From Opitutia bacterium ISCC 52 (lineage in GTDB: Bacteria; Verrucomicrobiota; Verrucomicrobiia; Opitutales; UBA2995), in assembly GCA_014529675.2 (NCBI GenBank), contig CP076040.1, positions 868,001 to 932,000 of the forward strand: a DNA stretch of 64,000 nt, read 5' to 3'. Position numbers and translations under genes: made by a program. This document shows, in pieces, positions 44,424 through 51,884 of this stretch (its first letter is position 1; the number at the start of each line of letters is the position of its first letter). The notes under the pieces are model-generated. The model was not told where the DNA came from and did no database searches. It saw only the letters and a list, made by a program, of their open reading frames with translations.

Positions 44424-45611
44424 ATGATAAGCCTAACTTTGTTGAGAATGCTTACACAGGATCAATATCCAATCCGCAAATGGGTCGTTGCTCTGCTAGC
44501 CTCGCTTTGCGCGGGTTCGGTACTATCAGCTAAGACCCAAGACGCCGATACACGTCCACCTTACGCTCTGTTTGAAGGAATGGATCTTCAAGTTTCCACT
44601 GAAGAGGGAGTTTTTCCGGTCGTAGGATTTACTAAGAAGCAAATCCTGGTTGCTCGGAACGGAAGTCATGACTCCCTTCCCACTAAAAGTAGTATCTCTT
44701 ATGCACTGCGCAGAAAACTCACGGATAAGTGGGTAAATCTGGAGATTGTGGAAACAGAGCTTTTCTACAGCCAAATGAATTCTGATTTCTCCGCCTATTC
44801 CACGGCTTTATCTGAAATTGATCGCGAGCAGGACAGATCTTTAGGCCATTCTTTTGGAGAACGAAGTGACCTGATTGGAGAGGATAATCCATTTGGGCGC
44901 GGAGGGACCGCGAGAATATCGGATTTGGATAACAGAACCCATTCGCTTTCTCGTGGGGACGGCTATGAAGGGTTGAGTCATGATCTGGAAGGAAAGCTTC
45001 ACGATCCACAAGCCTACGTTGATTCGCTAAGAGTGGTATTGGAATTAGACGTTGATGAGAGATTTAAAGGTGTCTATATAGTGCTGATTGCTCGTATTGA
45101 CTCTCCTGGTGCGGAGCCTGATGCTCGCCCCGTCATTCAAGTGGTGGGTCAGTTGAAGCCTGAGAAAACACGGCGAGTGAAAGTCGTGTTTAAAAACCTG
45201 CCTCAAGGCTTCTCTTTGTTAGGCATCGATGCTTATGTGTATAGTCAAGACGGGGAGATTCCTCATGCTTCGTCTGCCGACCTGACCATGTTATCTAGTG
45301 AAGAGGCATTCCAGTATTCATTGGGTAAATACAAACAAACGCGTGGCCAAAGTGAGCCGTCCTTGTTTCGTTCGCTTCCCGCTACTGGCATTACCTCATT
45401 TATCTCCGAAAAGGAGATTCTCAGGATCAAGGCAGACTTGATTGTGCACCCCGATGGTTCAGCTACCGTAGATTATTTAAGCACGGAAGATGATCCCATT
45501 ACTCAAAAGCTGGTTGGGGTGTTGGAAGGAGTGCGTTTCTTTCCAGCTATGGAAAATGGTCAACCGACCGAGAGCAAGATATCACTCAGATTGTCTAGCT
45601 TGGTGGACTAG
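44424..45611 (+). CDS. Exported protein with TonB-C-like C-terminal domain
   Basis: A 395-residue protein with an N-terminal hydrophobic helix (about 20-36, WVVALLASLCAGSVLSA). The mid-part is an unrecognised soluble domain with a Gly/Ser/Arg-rich insertion (about 145-190). The last 70 residues (LIVHPDGSATVDYLSTEDDPITQKL to GVRFFPAMENGQP) follow the TonB C-terminal / AgmX pattern: valine strand, helix, then the RFxPAxxxGxP strand. That domain contacts TonB-box receptors. The divergent position next to the large TonB receptor fits, but the N-terminal half lacks the usual proline-rich TonB spacer. Confidence 0.6.
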   Translation: MISLTLLRMLTQDQYPIRKWVVALLASLCAGSVLSAKTQDADTRPPYALFEGMDLQVSTEEGVFPVVGFTKKQILVARNGSHDSLPTKSSISYALRRKLTDKWVNLEIVETELFYSQMNSDFSAYSTALSEIDREQDRSLGHSFGERSDLIGEDNPFGRGGTARISDLDNRTHSLSRGDGYEGLSHDLEGKLHDPQAYVDSLRVVLELDVDERFKGVYIVLIARIDSPGAEPDARPVIQVVGQLKPEKTRRVKVVFKNLPQGFSLLGIDAYVYSQDGEIPHASSADLTMLSSEEAFQYSLGKYKQTRGQSEPSLFRSLPATGITSFISEKEILRIKADLIVHPDGSATVDYLSTEDDPITQKLVGVLEGVRFFPAMENGQPTESKISLRLSSLVD

Positions 45612-45948: not shown

Positions 45949-47289
45949 TTGCCCTTTATGCCTCTTTCTTCTCTGAAACTGATTCTTCATGCCTGCATTC
46001 TGACACTGATTGCAGTCCTCATGTACCTGAGTCTTTCCAGTTCTGGGAACGATCAATCAAGCTATCCCAATAAACCCATTCAAGTGGTGGTGCCCTACGA
46101 CCCAGGCGGAGGCACGGACACGTTTGCTCGGATCATTCAGAAAGGCATCAAGGATAACGATCTTATGCCTCAGCCACTCGTGGTGGTCAACAAGCCGGGT
46201 GGAGGCACGACCATCGGCAGCGGTTATGTGAAAGACGCCCGAACGGATGGTTACACGATGCTTTGTTTGCACGAAGCTATAATCACCGCGTATGTCACCG
46301 GGCAATCCCCGCATGGACCGGATGCCTTTGAGCCCGTTGGAGCCACGGGAGAAGTAATCCAGGTTATTTTAGTTTCCGAGGATTCCCCTTTTCAAACGAT
46401 TGAGCAGTTTATGGCAGAAGCGAAAGCGAAGCCAGAGACGATCAAGCTCGGAGTTACCATGAGTATGCCTACGCACTTTACCGGCTTAATGCTCGAAAGT
46501 TCTGCTCCCGATACACGGTTCCGGTTTGTTTCTTCTGGAGGGGGTGCTGCTCGCTTGGCATCCTTAATGGGGGGGCACGTCGATGCTTCCTTCTTTTCCG
46601 TGTCAGAATATATTCGTTTTAAATCCAATGGGCTGAGACCGCTTGCCGTGTTTGGTCCCACAAGGCACAATGGAGTTCCGGAAGTCCCGACCGCCATCGA
46701 GTCAGGATTCAATGTCAGTAACAGCAATCTTCAATACTGGTGGTTCCCTAAAGGAACAGATCCGGAGATTGTGGATTATTTATCCAACGTCCTGGATCAA
46801 GCCATGAAGACCGACTACGTGCGCGAGCGATTAGCCGAGCTGAGTATATTGCCACAGATTATAGTCGGGGATGAGTTGCGGGAGCGGATCGAGACCCGTA
46901 TGAAATCGTTTGCCGATATGACCATTGTGGAGCGGGTAATACTTCCCAATGTGGTCGCTTGGACCTTTGGAGCGATACTCGTGTTCGGTGTTGGTGTTTT
47001 GATGAATCATAGGCGGTCGCGAAAGAGCTTGGCCACCCAGGAAACAAACCTGCACTTGCGTTTTGACCTCGTCTGGAAATCGCTGCTTTTGGTGTTTGGT
47101 TATGTGCTCTTGATGGCCATGGGATGGTTGTCGTTTATCTGGGCAACCCTGCTGTTTGTATTCATGGGCTGTTTTGTGTTGGTCGATTTTAAGAAAGACA
47201 AACTACTTATTGTAGTGGAGTTATCGTTACTCATGTCCTTCGGAGTGCACCTGGTCTTTACTCAAATCTTTATGGTTTCGCTACCTTGA
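45949..47289 (+). CDS. Fused solute-binding (TctC) and small membrane subunit (TctB-like) of a tripartite tricarboxylate transporter
   Basis: A 446-residue protein. Residues 10-30 are a signal anchor. About 38-325 is a TctC-type binding protein (YPNKPIQVVVPYDPGGGTDTFAR, later GGGTTIGSG and GVPEVPTAIESG). From 332 to 446 come four hydrophobic helices (about 334-353, 377-394, 397-413, 418-440) ending in FMVSLP, the pattern of TctB after its first helix. The positively charged loop HRRSRKS (354-360) follows the first helix and so should be cytoplasmic, which keeps the binding domain outside. Such systems take up carboxylates with a cation gradient. The fusion is unusual: TctB and TctC are normally separate. 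Confidence 0.82.
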   Translation: MPFMPLSSLKLILHACILTLIAVLMYLSLSSSGNDQSSYPNKPIQVVVPYDPGGGTDTFARIIQKGIKDNDLMPQPLVVVNKPGGGTTIGSGYVKDARTDGYTMLCLHEAIITAYVTGQSPHGPDAFEPVGATGEVIQVILVSEDSPFQTIEQFMAEAKAKPETIKLGVTMSMPTHFTGLMLESSAPDTRFRFVSSGGGAARLASLMGGHVDASFFSVSEYIRFKSNGLRPLAVFGPTRHNGVPEVPTAIESGFNVSNSNLQYWWFPKGTDPEIVDYLSNVLDQAMKTDYVRERLAELSILPQIIVGDELRERIETRMKSFADMTIVERVILPNVVAWTFGAILVFGVGVLMNHRRSRKSLATQETNLHLRFDLVWKSLLLVFGYVLLMAMGWLSFIWATLLFVFMGCFVLVDFKKDKLLIVVELSLLMSFGVHLVFTQIFMVSLP

Positions 47290-47293
47290 CTCT

Positions 47294-48796
47294 ATGAGTG
47301 GAATGGAATCAGCCATAGCATACATCTTCAGCATTCAAGGAATACTCTTAGTCGTTTGTGGGACTATCCTCGGGATTACGGTGGGTGCCGTACCCGGGTT
47401 GACGGGGGCGATGCTGATTTCGCTTACCTTACCGCTCACTTTCAGCATGGATCCCGTGGCGGCCTTTATTCTTTTGATATCCATGTACGTGGGTGCTGTG
47501 AGTGGTGGATTGATAACAGCCACTTTGCTCCGCATGCCAGGTACGCCGGCCTCCATCATGACAACGTTGGATGGTTACCCCATGGCAAAGGGTGGAAAGC
47601 CGGGTCGGGCACTCGGCTTGGGGATTACCGCCTCCTTTGTTGGTGGACTGGTTTCTTGGGTATTTCTCATTTCCTTGTCCGCGCCTATCGCTCGTTACTC
47701 GACCAAACTGGGTCCCTTCGATTTCTTTTCATTGGTCCTGATGGCTCTGGTGCTCATCGCTTCGGTTGGTGGCAAATCAATGAGCCGTTCCTTTTTCTCG
47801 GCGGCCTGTGGAGTCTTTGCATCGCTTCCCGGTGTGGATAAGGCGACCGGGGCCTTAAGGCTCACCTTTGGATTTGAAGAATTGAATGGGGGGCTAAAGC
47901 TTCTGCCGGTTTTAATTGGTATGTTCGCCATCAGTCAGATCATTTCGGATATCAGTAGAATCAACGAAAAGATCGAAGTCATCCCGGTAAAGAAACGAGG
48001 AGACATGCTCTTCAAATTGCGGGACTGGAAGAATCAGGCGGTTAATATGATACGCTCTTCGATGATCGGGACCTGGATAGGTATCCTTCCTGGCATTGGT
48101 GCCAATATTGGTTCAGTGACCGCTTACAGTGCTGCCAAGTCCTTCGCCGATCCTGAAGAAAAGGAGAAGTTTGGAAAAGGATCGGAGGTGGCCGTGGTTG
48201 CCGCCGAATCTGCGAATAATGCAAGCATTGGGGGCGCGCTTATTCCCCTTATTTCGTTGGGTATCCCTGGGAGTGTCATTGATGCCATTCTCTTGGGAGC
48301 GCTGCTCGTTCATGGTCTTCAGCCGGGCCCACTTCTCTTTCAGCAAAACCCAACCATGGTCTACACGATTATGGGGACTCTGTTTGTTGCCAACGTCTTC
48401 ATGTTTTTCTTCATGATCTTCGCCGTCAAATACCTGGCGCGCTTGGCAACCATCCCACGTGGATTGTTAATGCCCGTTATTTTGGTATTCTGCATCATTG
48501 GTTCTTTTGCCCTGGCTACCCGCATGTTCGATGTGTGGACGATGCTGTTGTTTGGACTTCTTGGATTTGCCTTTGAGCGACTTCAAGTTCCGCTCGCACC
48601 CTTCGTTATTGGCTTCGTCCTTGCTCCGGTTGCCGAAGAAAATTTACTGACCGGGCTCATGGCATCCAATGGTAGTTATTTGCCATTGATCACGAGACCG
48701 GTTTCGCTGGTATTTGTCATTATATCAGTCTCACTTTTACTGGTTCCCATGTATAAACGTTTTCGACCAAAAATTGAAAACAAATCCCATAACTAG
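47294..48796 (+). CDS. tctA: Tripartite tricarboxylate transporter large permease TctA
   Basis: A 500-residue polytopic protein with about 12 helices. The TctA signatures are GAVPGLTGAMLISLTLPLTF near the start, YVGAVSGGLITATLLRMPGTPAS, and in the second half IGILPGIGANIGSVTAYSAAK, an internal repeat of the same motif. It forms the substrate channel of the TTT system with the fused TctC-TctB protein encoded 4 bases upstream. It lies 3 bases before a sulfatase gene, so transporter and sulfatase are one transcript. The substrate is probably an organic acid or a sulfated organic compound. Confidence 0.93.
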   Translation: MSGMESAIAYIFSIQGILLVVCGTILGITVGAVPGLTGAMLISLTLPLTFSMDPVAAFILLISMYVGAVSGGLITATLLRMPGTPASIMTTLDGYPMAKGGKPGRALGLGITASFVGGLVSWVFLISLSAPIARYSTKLGPFDFFSLVLMALVLIASVGGKSMSRSFFSAACGVFASLPGVDKATGALRLTFGFEELNGGLKLLPVLIGMFAISQIISDISRINEKIEVIPVKKRGDMLFKLRDWKNQAVNMIRSSMIGTWIGILPGIGANIGSVTAYSAAKSFADPEEKEKFGKGSEVAVVAAESANNASIGGALIPLISLGIPGSVIDAILLGALLVHGLQPGPLLFQQNPTMVYTIMGTLFVANVFMFFFMIFAVKYLARLATIPRGLLMPVILVFCIIGSFALATRMFDVWTMLLFGLLGFAFERLQVPLAPFVIGFVLAPVAEENLLTGLMASNGSYLPLITRPVSLVFVIISVSLLLVPMYKRFRPKIENKSHN

Positions 48797-48799
48797 TTT

Positions 48800-50353
48800 A
48801 TGAAAAACATCATCGTCCTGTTGCTCATTGTCTACGGTACTTCCTTCGCTCAAGAGCGCCCGAATGTATTGTTCATTTTTACTGATGATCAATCTACGCG
48901 AACGGTCAGTTCTTACCCCGATGCTTATCATTGGACCGATACACCAAATATAGATAAGTTTGCCAGTCAGGGGATTCAGTTTAACAATGCTTATATCGGT
49001 TCCTGGTGTATGCCGTCGCGTGCGACTTTCCTTACCGGGCTGCATCAGCATGCCATTCAATCCATGCGCATGGAGGGAGAGTACCCGGGGTGTGAATACG
49101 ATCCAGAGCTTTGTGAGTATTGGCCGAAGGCATTGAGGAGTGAAGGGTACTACACCGCTCAAATTGGTAAATGGCACACGGGCACAGATACGGGCTATGG
49201 AAGGGATTGGGATCATCAAATTGTTTGGAACCGTCCCCGTTATCCAGAGAACTCGCCCAACTACTACTACGATCAATTGACTGAAATTGATGGGCAACCT
49301 CCGGTTATGGTGGAGGGGTATACCACCGATAATTATACTGATTGGGCGGTTGAGTTTATCGAGGGTAAGAATCGCGATGAATCTAAGCCCTGGTTTCTGT
49401 GGTTATGTTATGGAGCGGTGCATGGGCCCTTTACTCCGGCCGACCGTCATTTGGATGACTATGCCGATGCTGACACACCGGACATTGAAGACATCTACCC
49501 TCCACGTCCTGGAAAGCCGGCTTACGTGAATCGCTGGGAATTGTGGGAAAAAGGCCCTGGTGGGATACCGGTTGAGAAGGCCAGAGTAGGAGAGACGCCC
49601 GTGGGCATGGTCGATACACCAGGCCGACCGCTCAAAGATTGGATTCGTCAATACCAGCAAGGTGTTCTGGCGATTGATGAGGGGGTCGCTCGATTGCTTC
49701 AATCTTTGAAGGATTCCGGGCAGGATGAAAACACCATCGTGGTATTTACCTCTGATCAAGGATTTGCCTGGGGGCAGCATGGCTATAAGGGGAAGATGGC
49801 TCCGTACCGAGCCGCTATTTCAGCTCCTTTGATTTTTAGACTGCCTCCTAAACTCGCCAATGCGAACCGGAGTCGTGGCACCGTCGTTCAGACCCAAGTG
49901 AGTGGAGTGGATGTTCCTGTAACGTTGTTCTCGCTCATGGGATTGGATCTGCCCTGGAAAATGCACGGGCATGATTTAACGCCTCTGCTGCTGGATCCTG
50001 AAGCGAAGTGGAACTATCCGGCAGTGATGATACACACCGCACGTCAATTTGGAGAAAACACCCAGCGAGTTCCAACACTTGATGAGCCTTTGATTCTCTA
50101 TCATCCACCCACCGTAGGAGTTCCCTGGTACGTGATGTTGAGCCAGGGACGGTACAAATATATCCGAACCTTGGTCGAAGGGGAAATGGAGGAGCTATAC
50201 GATGTGGTTAGTGATCCCGATGAGTTGCACAATTTGGCATTCGATAAAAGTTACCGGCAGGTCTTGTTGAAATACCGGAAGGCTATGATCAAAGAACTTA
50301 AGCGAACCGATGCCAAGTTCGTGAATGATATGCCTTCAGTAGCTGAGCTATAA
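48800..50353 (+). CDS. Secreted sulfatase
   Basis: A 517-residue sulfatase with a signal peptide (about 1-17, ending SFAQ). Metal site IFTDDQSTR (Asp29-Asp30), formylglycine motif CMPSR (Cys70-Arg74) in WCMPSRATFLTG, GKWHTG and later FTSDQGFAWGQHGYKGK. All expected catalytic elements are present. It follows TctA with a 3-base gap, which suggests that its product or an intact sulfated compound is imported by the TTT system. The substrate is unknown. Confidence 0.93.
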   Translation: MKNIIVLLLIVYGTSFAQERPNVLFIFTDDQSTRTVSSYPDAYHWTDTPNIDKFASQGIQFNNAYIGSWCMPSRATFLTGLHQHAIQSMRMEGEYPGCEYDPELCEYWPKALRSEGYYTAQIGKWHTGTDTGYGRDWDHQIVWNRPRYPENSPNYYYDQLTEIDGQPPVMVEGYTTDNYTDWAVEFIEGKNRDESKPWFLWLCYGAVHGPFTPADRHLDDYADADTPDIEDIYPPRPGKPAYVNRWELWEKGPGGIPVEKARVGETPVGMVDTPGRPLKDWIRQYQQGVLAIDEGVARLLQSLKDSGQDENTIVVFTSDQGFAWGQHGYKGKMAPYRAAISAPLIFRLPPKLANANRSRGTVVQTQVSGVDVPVTLFSLMGLDLPWKMHGHDLTPLLLDPEAKWNYPAVMIHTARQFGENTQRVPTLDEPLILYHPPTVGVPWYVMLSQGRYKYIRTLVEGEMEELYDVVSDPDELHNLAFDKSYRQVLLKYRKAMIKELKRTDAKFVNDMPSVAEL

Positions 50354-50477: not shown

Positions 50478-51884
50478 ATGACGCGACCTAACATCCTTTT
50501 CTACTGCACGGATCAGCAACGTTTCGATACGATCGGAGCGCTTGGAAATCCTTATGTAAAAACCTCCCGTATGGATCAGCTTGTGGGAGAGGGGACGGCC
50601 TTTACTCACGCCTATTGCCAGAGCCCTATTTGCACGCCCAGTCGATCCAGCTTTATGACGGGACTTTATCCAACCCGGGTACACAACACCCGTAATGGAA
50701 ACGACACCTGGCCCAAAGATGCACCACCACTCATTTCAAAAATGCTGGCTGATTCCGGTTATACCTGCGGCAACGTAGGCAAATTTCACCTGACCAGTTC
50801 AGGCCTGCGAACGGAGCCTCGTCTCGACGATGGGTATAGCTACTGGAAATTCAGCCACGCCCCACGAGACGACTGGGAAGAAGGGCACGACTATGCCGAT
50901 TGGGTGAGGGAGAAAGGGGGCGATTTGGATGCCTTGCGAGAGAGCCCCGAGAACGTTCCGCCGGAATTCCATCAAACCACCTGGGCTACGGATTGTTCCA
51001 TTGAATTTATTAATCAGAATGAAGATCAACCCTGGTTTCTCACGGTTAATGTTTATGATCCTCATCCACCTTTTGTCCCGCCCAAGGTCTATGCTGATCA
51101 GTTCAATCCAGACGACATGCCAGGTGCACATCATGAGGAGTCGGATCGGGAGACGCATGCCTATTTAAACGAAGTCGATTTTCAGAAAGCATCGAAGGTT
51201 TATCGAAGCCGGGAAGAGTTTGATGCCAAAAAAGAACAAGCGCTTTACTATGCAATGATTGCGCAGGTTGATGATCAATTTGCTCGCTTATTAAAGGCTC
51301 TCGAAGACAGCGGACAGAAGGAGAACACCCTTATCGTTTTTTCCAGTGATCACGGAGAAGCGCTGGGGGATCACGGACTCATTCTCAAGGGCTGCCGGTT
51401 TTATGAAGGACTGGTTCGTGTGCCTCTAATATTTAGTTGGCCCGGAGTGATTAAAGAGAACCTTAAAGCCGATGGATTGGTTGAGTTGCTCGACCTGTCA
51501 GCAACGATTCTTGATTTTGCAGGATTGGACATACCGGAGTATTTCCAGGGGAACTCACTTCGTTCCATCCTCGAAGGCGAGAAGAGTGGGGAGCATATCC
51601 GCGATTCGGTACGTTGTGAGTATTTCGATGCCATCTCTGCTCACTTCTGCGGAGGGAACGGGAGTTGGGCCACTATGTACCGGCATGGTCAATACAAAAT
51701 CAACGTTTATCACGGACTCAATGTCGGCGAACTCTATGATTTGGAAGATGATCCTTGGGAGCACAAAAATCTCTGGAACAGTCCCGAGCACGAAGCTCTG
51801 AAAAATAAACTCATATTTGAGAGCTTTGAGCAGCATGTCCTGTTGACCACCGATGTCGGGTCCAAGCGAATCGCACCGATGTGA
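50478..51884 (+). CDS. Leaderless (probably cytoplasmic) sulfatase
   Basis: A 468-residue sulfatase that starts directly with the catalytic fold: MTRPNILFYCTDQQRFDT, with no signal peptide. The formylglycine motif is CTPSR (Cys52-Arg56) in PICTPSRSSFMTGLYPTR. GKFHL and FSSDHGEALGDHGL complete the active site. The lack of a leader, beside a transporter for small organic anions, suggests desulfation inside the cell of an imported sulfated compound. Formylglycine would then be installed in the cytoplasm. An alternative start further upstream with a leader was looked for and not found. Confidence 0.9.
   Translation: MTRPNILFYCTDQQRFDTIGALGNPYVKTSRMDQLVGEGTAFTHAYCQSPICTPSRSSFMTGLYPTRVHNTRNGNDTWPKDAPPLISKMLADSGYTCGNVGKFHLTSSGLRTEPRLDDGYSYWKFSHAPRDDWEEGHDYADWVREKGGDLDALRESPENVPPEFHQTTWATDCSIEFINQNEDQPWFLTVNVYDPHPPFVPPKVYADQFNPDDMPGAHHEESDRETHAYLNEVDFQKASKVYRSREEFDAKKEQALYYAMIAQVDDQFARLLKALEDSGQKENTLIVFSSDHGEALGDHGLILKGCRFYEGLVRVPLIFSWPGVIKENLKADGLVELLDLSATILDFAGLDIPEYFQGNSLRSILEGEKSGEHIRDSVRCEYFDAISAHFCGGNGSWATMYRHGQYKINVYHGLNVGELYDLEDDPWEHKNLWNSPEHEALKNKLIFESFEQHVLLTTDVGSKRIAPM

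Follow-up and report, generated by a model that had tools for sequence, protein, structure and literature searches.

A fusion of the TctC receptor with the TctB membrane subunit as an apparent lineage-specific variant of the TTT transporters

TTT transporters are described as three-component systems in which the function of TctB is unknown and one TctAB fusion was found (Rosa et al. 2018, PMC5812351), and a paper of 2026 reports the absence of any characterised TctB as well as failed attempts at its purification (PMC13390454). In other transporter families, P-Q fusions of TRAP systems are mentioned as rare and ABC transporters that carry a fused binding protein are named in the same source (PMC8276074), while TAXI-GltS fusions are reported from Lachnospiraceae (PMC12344293). 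Our searches returned no description of a TctC-TctB or TctA-C-B fusion in the open-licence PMC literature, and no solved structure of TctA or of a TTT membrane complex.

The window analysed here, a stretch of 64,000 nucleotides, belongs to the 4.8 Mb genome of Opitutia bacterium ISCC 52, which is one closed contig, and carries a fusion gene on the + strand (45958..47289) that encodes 443 residues from an ATG at 45958; judging from the sequence this start is more likely than the TTG at 45949, from which the product would have 446 residues. Within the 446-codon open reading frame (45949-47289) a Pfam scan matches PF03401 (TctC) at residues 60–300 (E=6.9e-27) and PF07331 (TctB) at residues 333–446, the latter above the cut-off both in the whole frame (E=5.7e-09) and with the TctB stretch scanned alone (3.6e-09). 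The TctB profile is covered only at positions 33–137 of its 137, helix 1 being absent, and the proposal of the first-pass annotation that one frame joins TctC to TctB from its second helix onward is thus borne out. Numbered from the ATG, the protein consists of a hydrophobic N-terminal helix (aa 3–29; 45964..46044, + strand), predicted to be a signal anchor and a topological stand-in for TctB helix 1, a TctC-type solute-binding domain (aa 34–326; 46057..46935, +) and the TctB domain from second helix to C-terminus (aa 330–443; 46945..47286, +). The gene for the large membrane (translocation) subunit, tctA (47294..48796, +), begins 4 bases past the fusion stop codon, as had been proposed, and its product matches PF01970 with E=8.8e-141; upstream of the fusion gene, a frame of 395 residues (44424-45611) has no Pfam match. 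The Pfam scan returns TctC, TctB and TctA and none of the TRAP families (DctP, DctQ, DctM), and TctA and TctB are encoded by separate genes, unlike in a TctAB fusion. Since TctC and TctB share one reading frame, where a standard TTT system has three individual proteins and an unattached receptor in the periplasm, the system is classed as a variant of TTT.

The AlphaFold2 model of the fused protein (pLDDT 85) has an N-terminal helix at 3–29, followed by a TctC fold and by four C-terminal helices (332–357, 369–388, 393–408 and 413–437). In a fold search the TctC part scores Z 32–36 against Bug27, TphC, BugD and others; among solved structures, TctC/Bug proteins are closest to the binding domain in sequence as well as in fold. 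The TctB part opens at an invariant proline, which aligns with the proline preceding TctB helix 2, and just before it, at residues 321–330, model confidence falls to about 60: an exposed flexible linker is possible at this point, and the chain could in principle be cut there after export to yield an ordinary free TctC plus TctB. We regard such proteolytic separation as improbable, given that the junction has the invariant proline and no conserved cleavage motif, and that the freed TctB would be left with an extracellular N-terminus and without helix 1.

A frame error near 46930-46960, which the first-pass annotation had itself named as the case that would split the two domains, is excluded by the two further fusion genes of the closed genome, with open frames of 449 and 451, and by dozens of orthologues that are open across the junction. 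Indeed, in seven ortholog pairs compared over the junction and the TctB part, dN/dS ranges from 0.06 to 0.51, with one pair saturated: the junction is under purifying selection. The broader idea that a frame error, a chimera or a pseudogene has united two genes finds nothing in its favour except one broken relative from a draft genome (L090) and, in view of the three paralogues that the closed genome contains, the open orthologues and dN/dS values well under 1, has practically no chance of being correct.

Of the six tctA genes in the host genome, half adjoin fusions (at about 914, 1565 and 3360 kb) and the other half accompany tctC and tctB as individual genes. The earlier statement that no separate tctB exists is correct within this operon; elsewhere in the genome three stand-alone tctB genes occur. 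In seven other sampled genomes of the host family, TctB matches are present in all and fusions in six. Searching 84,980 species genomes for relatives of the fused protein retrieved 27 of the fused kind, all within Verrucomicrobiota, Planctomycetota or Lentisphaerota, while the next-best matches, mostly from Proteobacteria, cover TctC only. The match runs through to the end of TctB in 25 of these relatives, which are further cases of the full TctC-then-PF07331 arrangement that the first-pass annotation had thought worth searching for; the other two are incomplete, one being ended by a contig edge and one apparently frameshifted. A tctA gene was found in 25 of the 27 loci, on the same strand and directly adjacent in 24. 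Among 369 genomes from the bacterial class that includes Bordetella, no fusion exceeded a threshold that separates fused from free TctC, and in one Bordetella genome with at least 150 TctC matches those listed span TctC only. On these sequence comparisons the fusion is real, conserved and specific to certain lineages, a variant form within a known family of transporters. As a separate observation, in a related genome conventional tctC, tctB and tctA share one reading frame with only single stop codons between them (L195:5789-8818), and likewise a single stop codon, in the same frame, lies between fusion and tctA in L066, L067, L070 and L071.

In every one scanned of what we term type I fusions, the match to the TctB profile starts near position 31–38, helix 1 being missing and a hydrophobic N-terminal helix occupying its position. 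The character of this N-terminus differs among relatives: in Opitutales and most Planctomycetota fusions the anchor looks uncleaved, a lipoprotein signal is found in Akkermansiaceae and in L086 (L072, L076, L078, L080, L082, L045/L046 and L086), and in L074 and L090 the signal is possibly cleavable. The suggestion that the binding domain is tethered at both ends is thus plausible for the window protein, but does not extend to the relatives with lipoprotein or cleavable-looking signals. Because of this variation, the constant feature of type I is the loss of TctB helix 1, a second transmembrane tether not being defining. Also in L090 (2235-3578), the TctB part looks frameshifted past about residue 355; the genome is a draft and an assembly error is possible.

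The anchor has the in-to-out orientation and the position of TctB helix 1, and it could accordingly be supposed to be that original helix, the binding domain having been inserted in the first periplasmic loop of TctB. When anchors were joined to TctB parts and the chimeras of 36 fusions were scored against the TctB profile, no signal above controls resulted, although the power of this comparison is weak because the anchor is a short hydrophobic stretch: the mean gain was −0.9 bits, compared with −1.1 for signal peptides of free TctC and −0.9 for shuffled anchors. L079, L087 and L089 do gain slightly in TctB score, but several relatives have a lipoprotein signal at the anchor site, and on balance we consider a domain insertion unlikely, the reading of an export anchor that has taken the place of helix 1 being preferred.

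A distinct set of observations came from the TctA tree. Type I systems, single-chain ones included, fall together (support 94/90) in a position surrounded by unfused systems. Type II fusions (L168-L171, Planctomycetota) have a lipoprotein-like N-terminus and match the TctB profile from 24–27, and type III (L175) has a complete TctB from profile position 6 with an extra hydrophobic helix in front. Grouping of type I with type II in one clade is rejected (p-AU 1.6e-05), as is that of type I with type III (p-AU 1.7e-04). With long branches as a caution, the tree gives three separate origins of the TctC-TctB fusion: helix 1 was lost in two, whereas the other retained it and acquired an additional helix. 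The type III gene (L175:2672-4294) comes from a member of Verrucomicrobiota of the same class as the host, and its product has an apparently cleavable signal peptide, the extra helix and a complete TctB. As a binding domain on the outer face has to be linked to a TctB whose N-terminus is normally on the inner face, a fusion needs either loss of helix 1, with an export anchor substituting for it, or gain of a helix; these are the two routes for joining an outside domain to an inside-starting protein, and both were taken. The topology proposed earlier for the fusion, in which the positively charged loop would be cytoplasmic, is supported, with additional backing from L175, where helix 1 is kept with an added helix ahead of it, and from Planctomycetota chains in which TctA precedes the anchor helix in one polypeptide.

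In these chains, found in nine Planctomycetota genomes, several of them complete, a whole TTT system is encoded in one uninterrupted frame of 983–984 codons (972–973 residues from the ATG), as in L165:4232-7150 (+ strand) and also in L166, L167, L180 and L181-L185. TctA (PF01970, E 9e-143) comes first and is followed by a polar linker, the anchor helix, which is hydrophobic, TctC (E 3e-33) and finally a TctB region. Scanned alone, this last region gives E 4e-06 and 1e-06, values that reach or narrowly miss the Pfam cut-off, and the fusion profile matches it over its full length. Since TctA lies ahead of the anchor in the same chain, the anchor is not a conventional N-terminal signal peptide there, and this internal helix independently supports the in-to-out orientation. 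The AlphaFold2 model of the single chain is confident only for TctA (pLDDT mostly 60–95), the C-terminal half being poor with a shallow alignment; aligning the single-chain proteins together with separate TctA and TctC-TctB proteins put the TctC-TctB proteins out of place, and that alignment was left out. In a fold search the elevator transporters DASS/INDY and SiaQM were matched by TctA only weakly, at Z 6–8, which is under the tool's safe level for helical proteins, and Foldseek E>0.005; these matches hint at an elevator mechanism. The joining with TctA in a single chain also bears on whether the binding domain might be a sensor or scaffold with no part in transport. Orphan TctC-type proteins do exist, including one in the host genome (L188), but the tight linkage to tctA, the lack of a tctB in the operon and the single-chain proteins all speak against such a role, which we hold to be very improbable.

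We thus favour, with a probability of roughly 85%, a two-gene TTT system in which the fused protein is both substrate receptor and small membrane subunit and works with TctA. The N-terminal helix would direct export and anchor the chain, the TctC domain would catch an anionic solute in the periplasm, the C-terminal TctB helices would keep this domain beside TctA, and TctA would carry out ion-driven uptake. The sequences themselves show the fusion, the missing helix 1, the conservation, the link with tctA and the separate origins; from them we infer the topology, a single binding domain for each TctA and a continued capacity for transport.

As to the solute, the gene following tctA, in the same direction, encodes a sulfatase with a signal peptide and a CMPSR motif (S1; 48800..50353, +), and a second sulfatase without signal peptide carries a CTPSR motif (S2; 50478..51884, +), both conforming to CxPxR. 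Since the 4.8 Mb host genome has at least 150 sulfatase matches (312 candidates), the proximity seen in the window alone carries no weight, and evidential weight is limited to the specific signal-less orthologue across genomes; PVC genomes are extremely rich in such enzymes, and the organisms are known for very large sulfatase sets (PMC6388578). Orthologues of S2 in other PVC genomes are 64–95% identical to it, usually present in one or two copies per genome among 100–350 sulfatase candidates, and in most genomes that have one, across phyla, it adjoins the fused genes or lies up to about 12 kb away, directly behind the single-chain genes among other places; exceptions are G652, where it sits on a different contig, and G007, in which a break in the contig obscures the surroundings of one copy. 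A signal-less sulfatase follows the single-chain gene by 28–75 bases in all four cases with flanks read (e.g. L165:7244-8638), and signal-less sulfatases other than the S2 orthologue adjoin L069, L077, L084, L087 and L089. Overall, such an enzyme is found beside about 18 of 41 fused loci, a partly manual count in which L082, L173 and L072 were scored signal-less from their sequences against the automatic call, versus 0 of 17 unfused PVC loci, several of which share a genome, the Fisher p of 0.0005 being inflated by relatedness. Sulfatases near the unfused loci are mostly secreted-looking, and several fused loci are without a nearby sulfatase (L068, L070, L073, L075, L081, L083, L091 and L177). 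The pattern suggests uptake of a sulphated compound by some fused systems, not by all. That the solute of many of them is an organic sulphate ester, cleaved in the cytoplasm by the adjacent signal-less sulfatase, we would put at slightly less than an even chance; somewhat more tentative is the wider proposal of a PVC class of receptor-tethered TTT systems, extending to the single-chain TctA-anchor-TctC-TctB form, that would import organic sulphate esters in a manner coupled to cytoplasmic desulphation. If true, this would be a path for sulphated algal compounds separate from periplasmic desulphation, and the linked cytoplasmic-type sulfatase provides a concrete substrate hypothesis.

With the receptor fused to TctB at least three times, TctB would be the subunit beside which the receptor can be held permanently, and the natural fusions suggest that its helix 1 can be dispensed with or replaced. 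In the single-chain form, a practical target for structural and transport work, the subunits are set at 1:1:1, and the fused forms of marine Verrucomicrobia and Planctomycetes, in which the proportion of the parts is fixed, should ease the study of a poorly understood importer family.

Conventional TctCBA systems (TC 2.A.80) likewise have homologous TctA, TctB and TctC from adjacent genes, but here a single protein comprises both the receptor and the small membrane subunit, and it lacks TctB helix 1. The TctAB fusion of Paraburkholderia caribensis (PMC5812351) also has two TTT subunits in one polypeptide; it joins the membrane subunits and leaves the receptor free, whereas the present fusion joins receptor and small subunit. 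By analogy, receptor tethering is not unprecedented, as is indicated by TRAP P-Q and TAXI-GltS fusions and by ABC transporters that have a binding protein attached. TRAP P-Q fusions (PMC8276074) resemble the present protein in joining a binding protein with a small membrane subunit, but their families are DctP/DctQ and those found here are the Pfam families TctC, TctB and TctA. TAXI-GltS (PMC12344293) is similarly a binding protein fused with a secondary transporter, although its receptor and transporter are unrelated to the present ones and its hosts presumably have no conventional periplasm, in contrast with the present host, which has TonB-dependent receptors. What is new here is the joining of TctA, TctC and TctB as one chain in nine Planctomycetota genomes.
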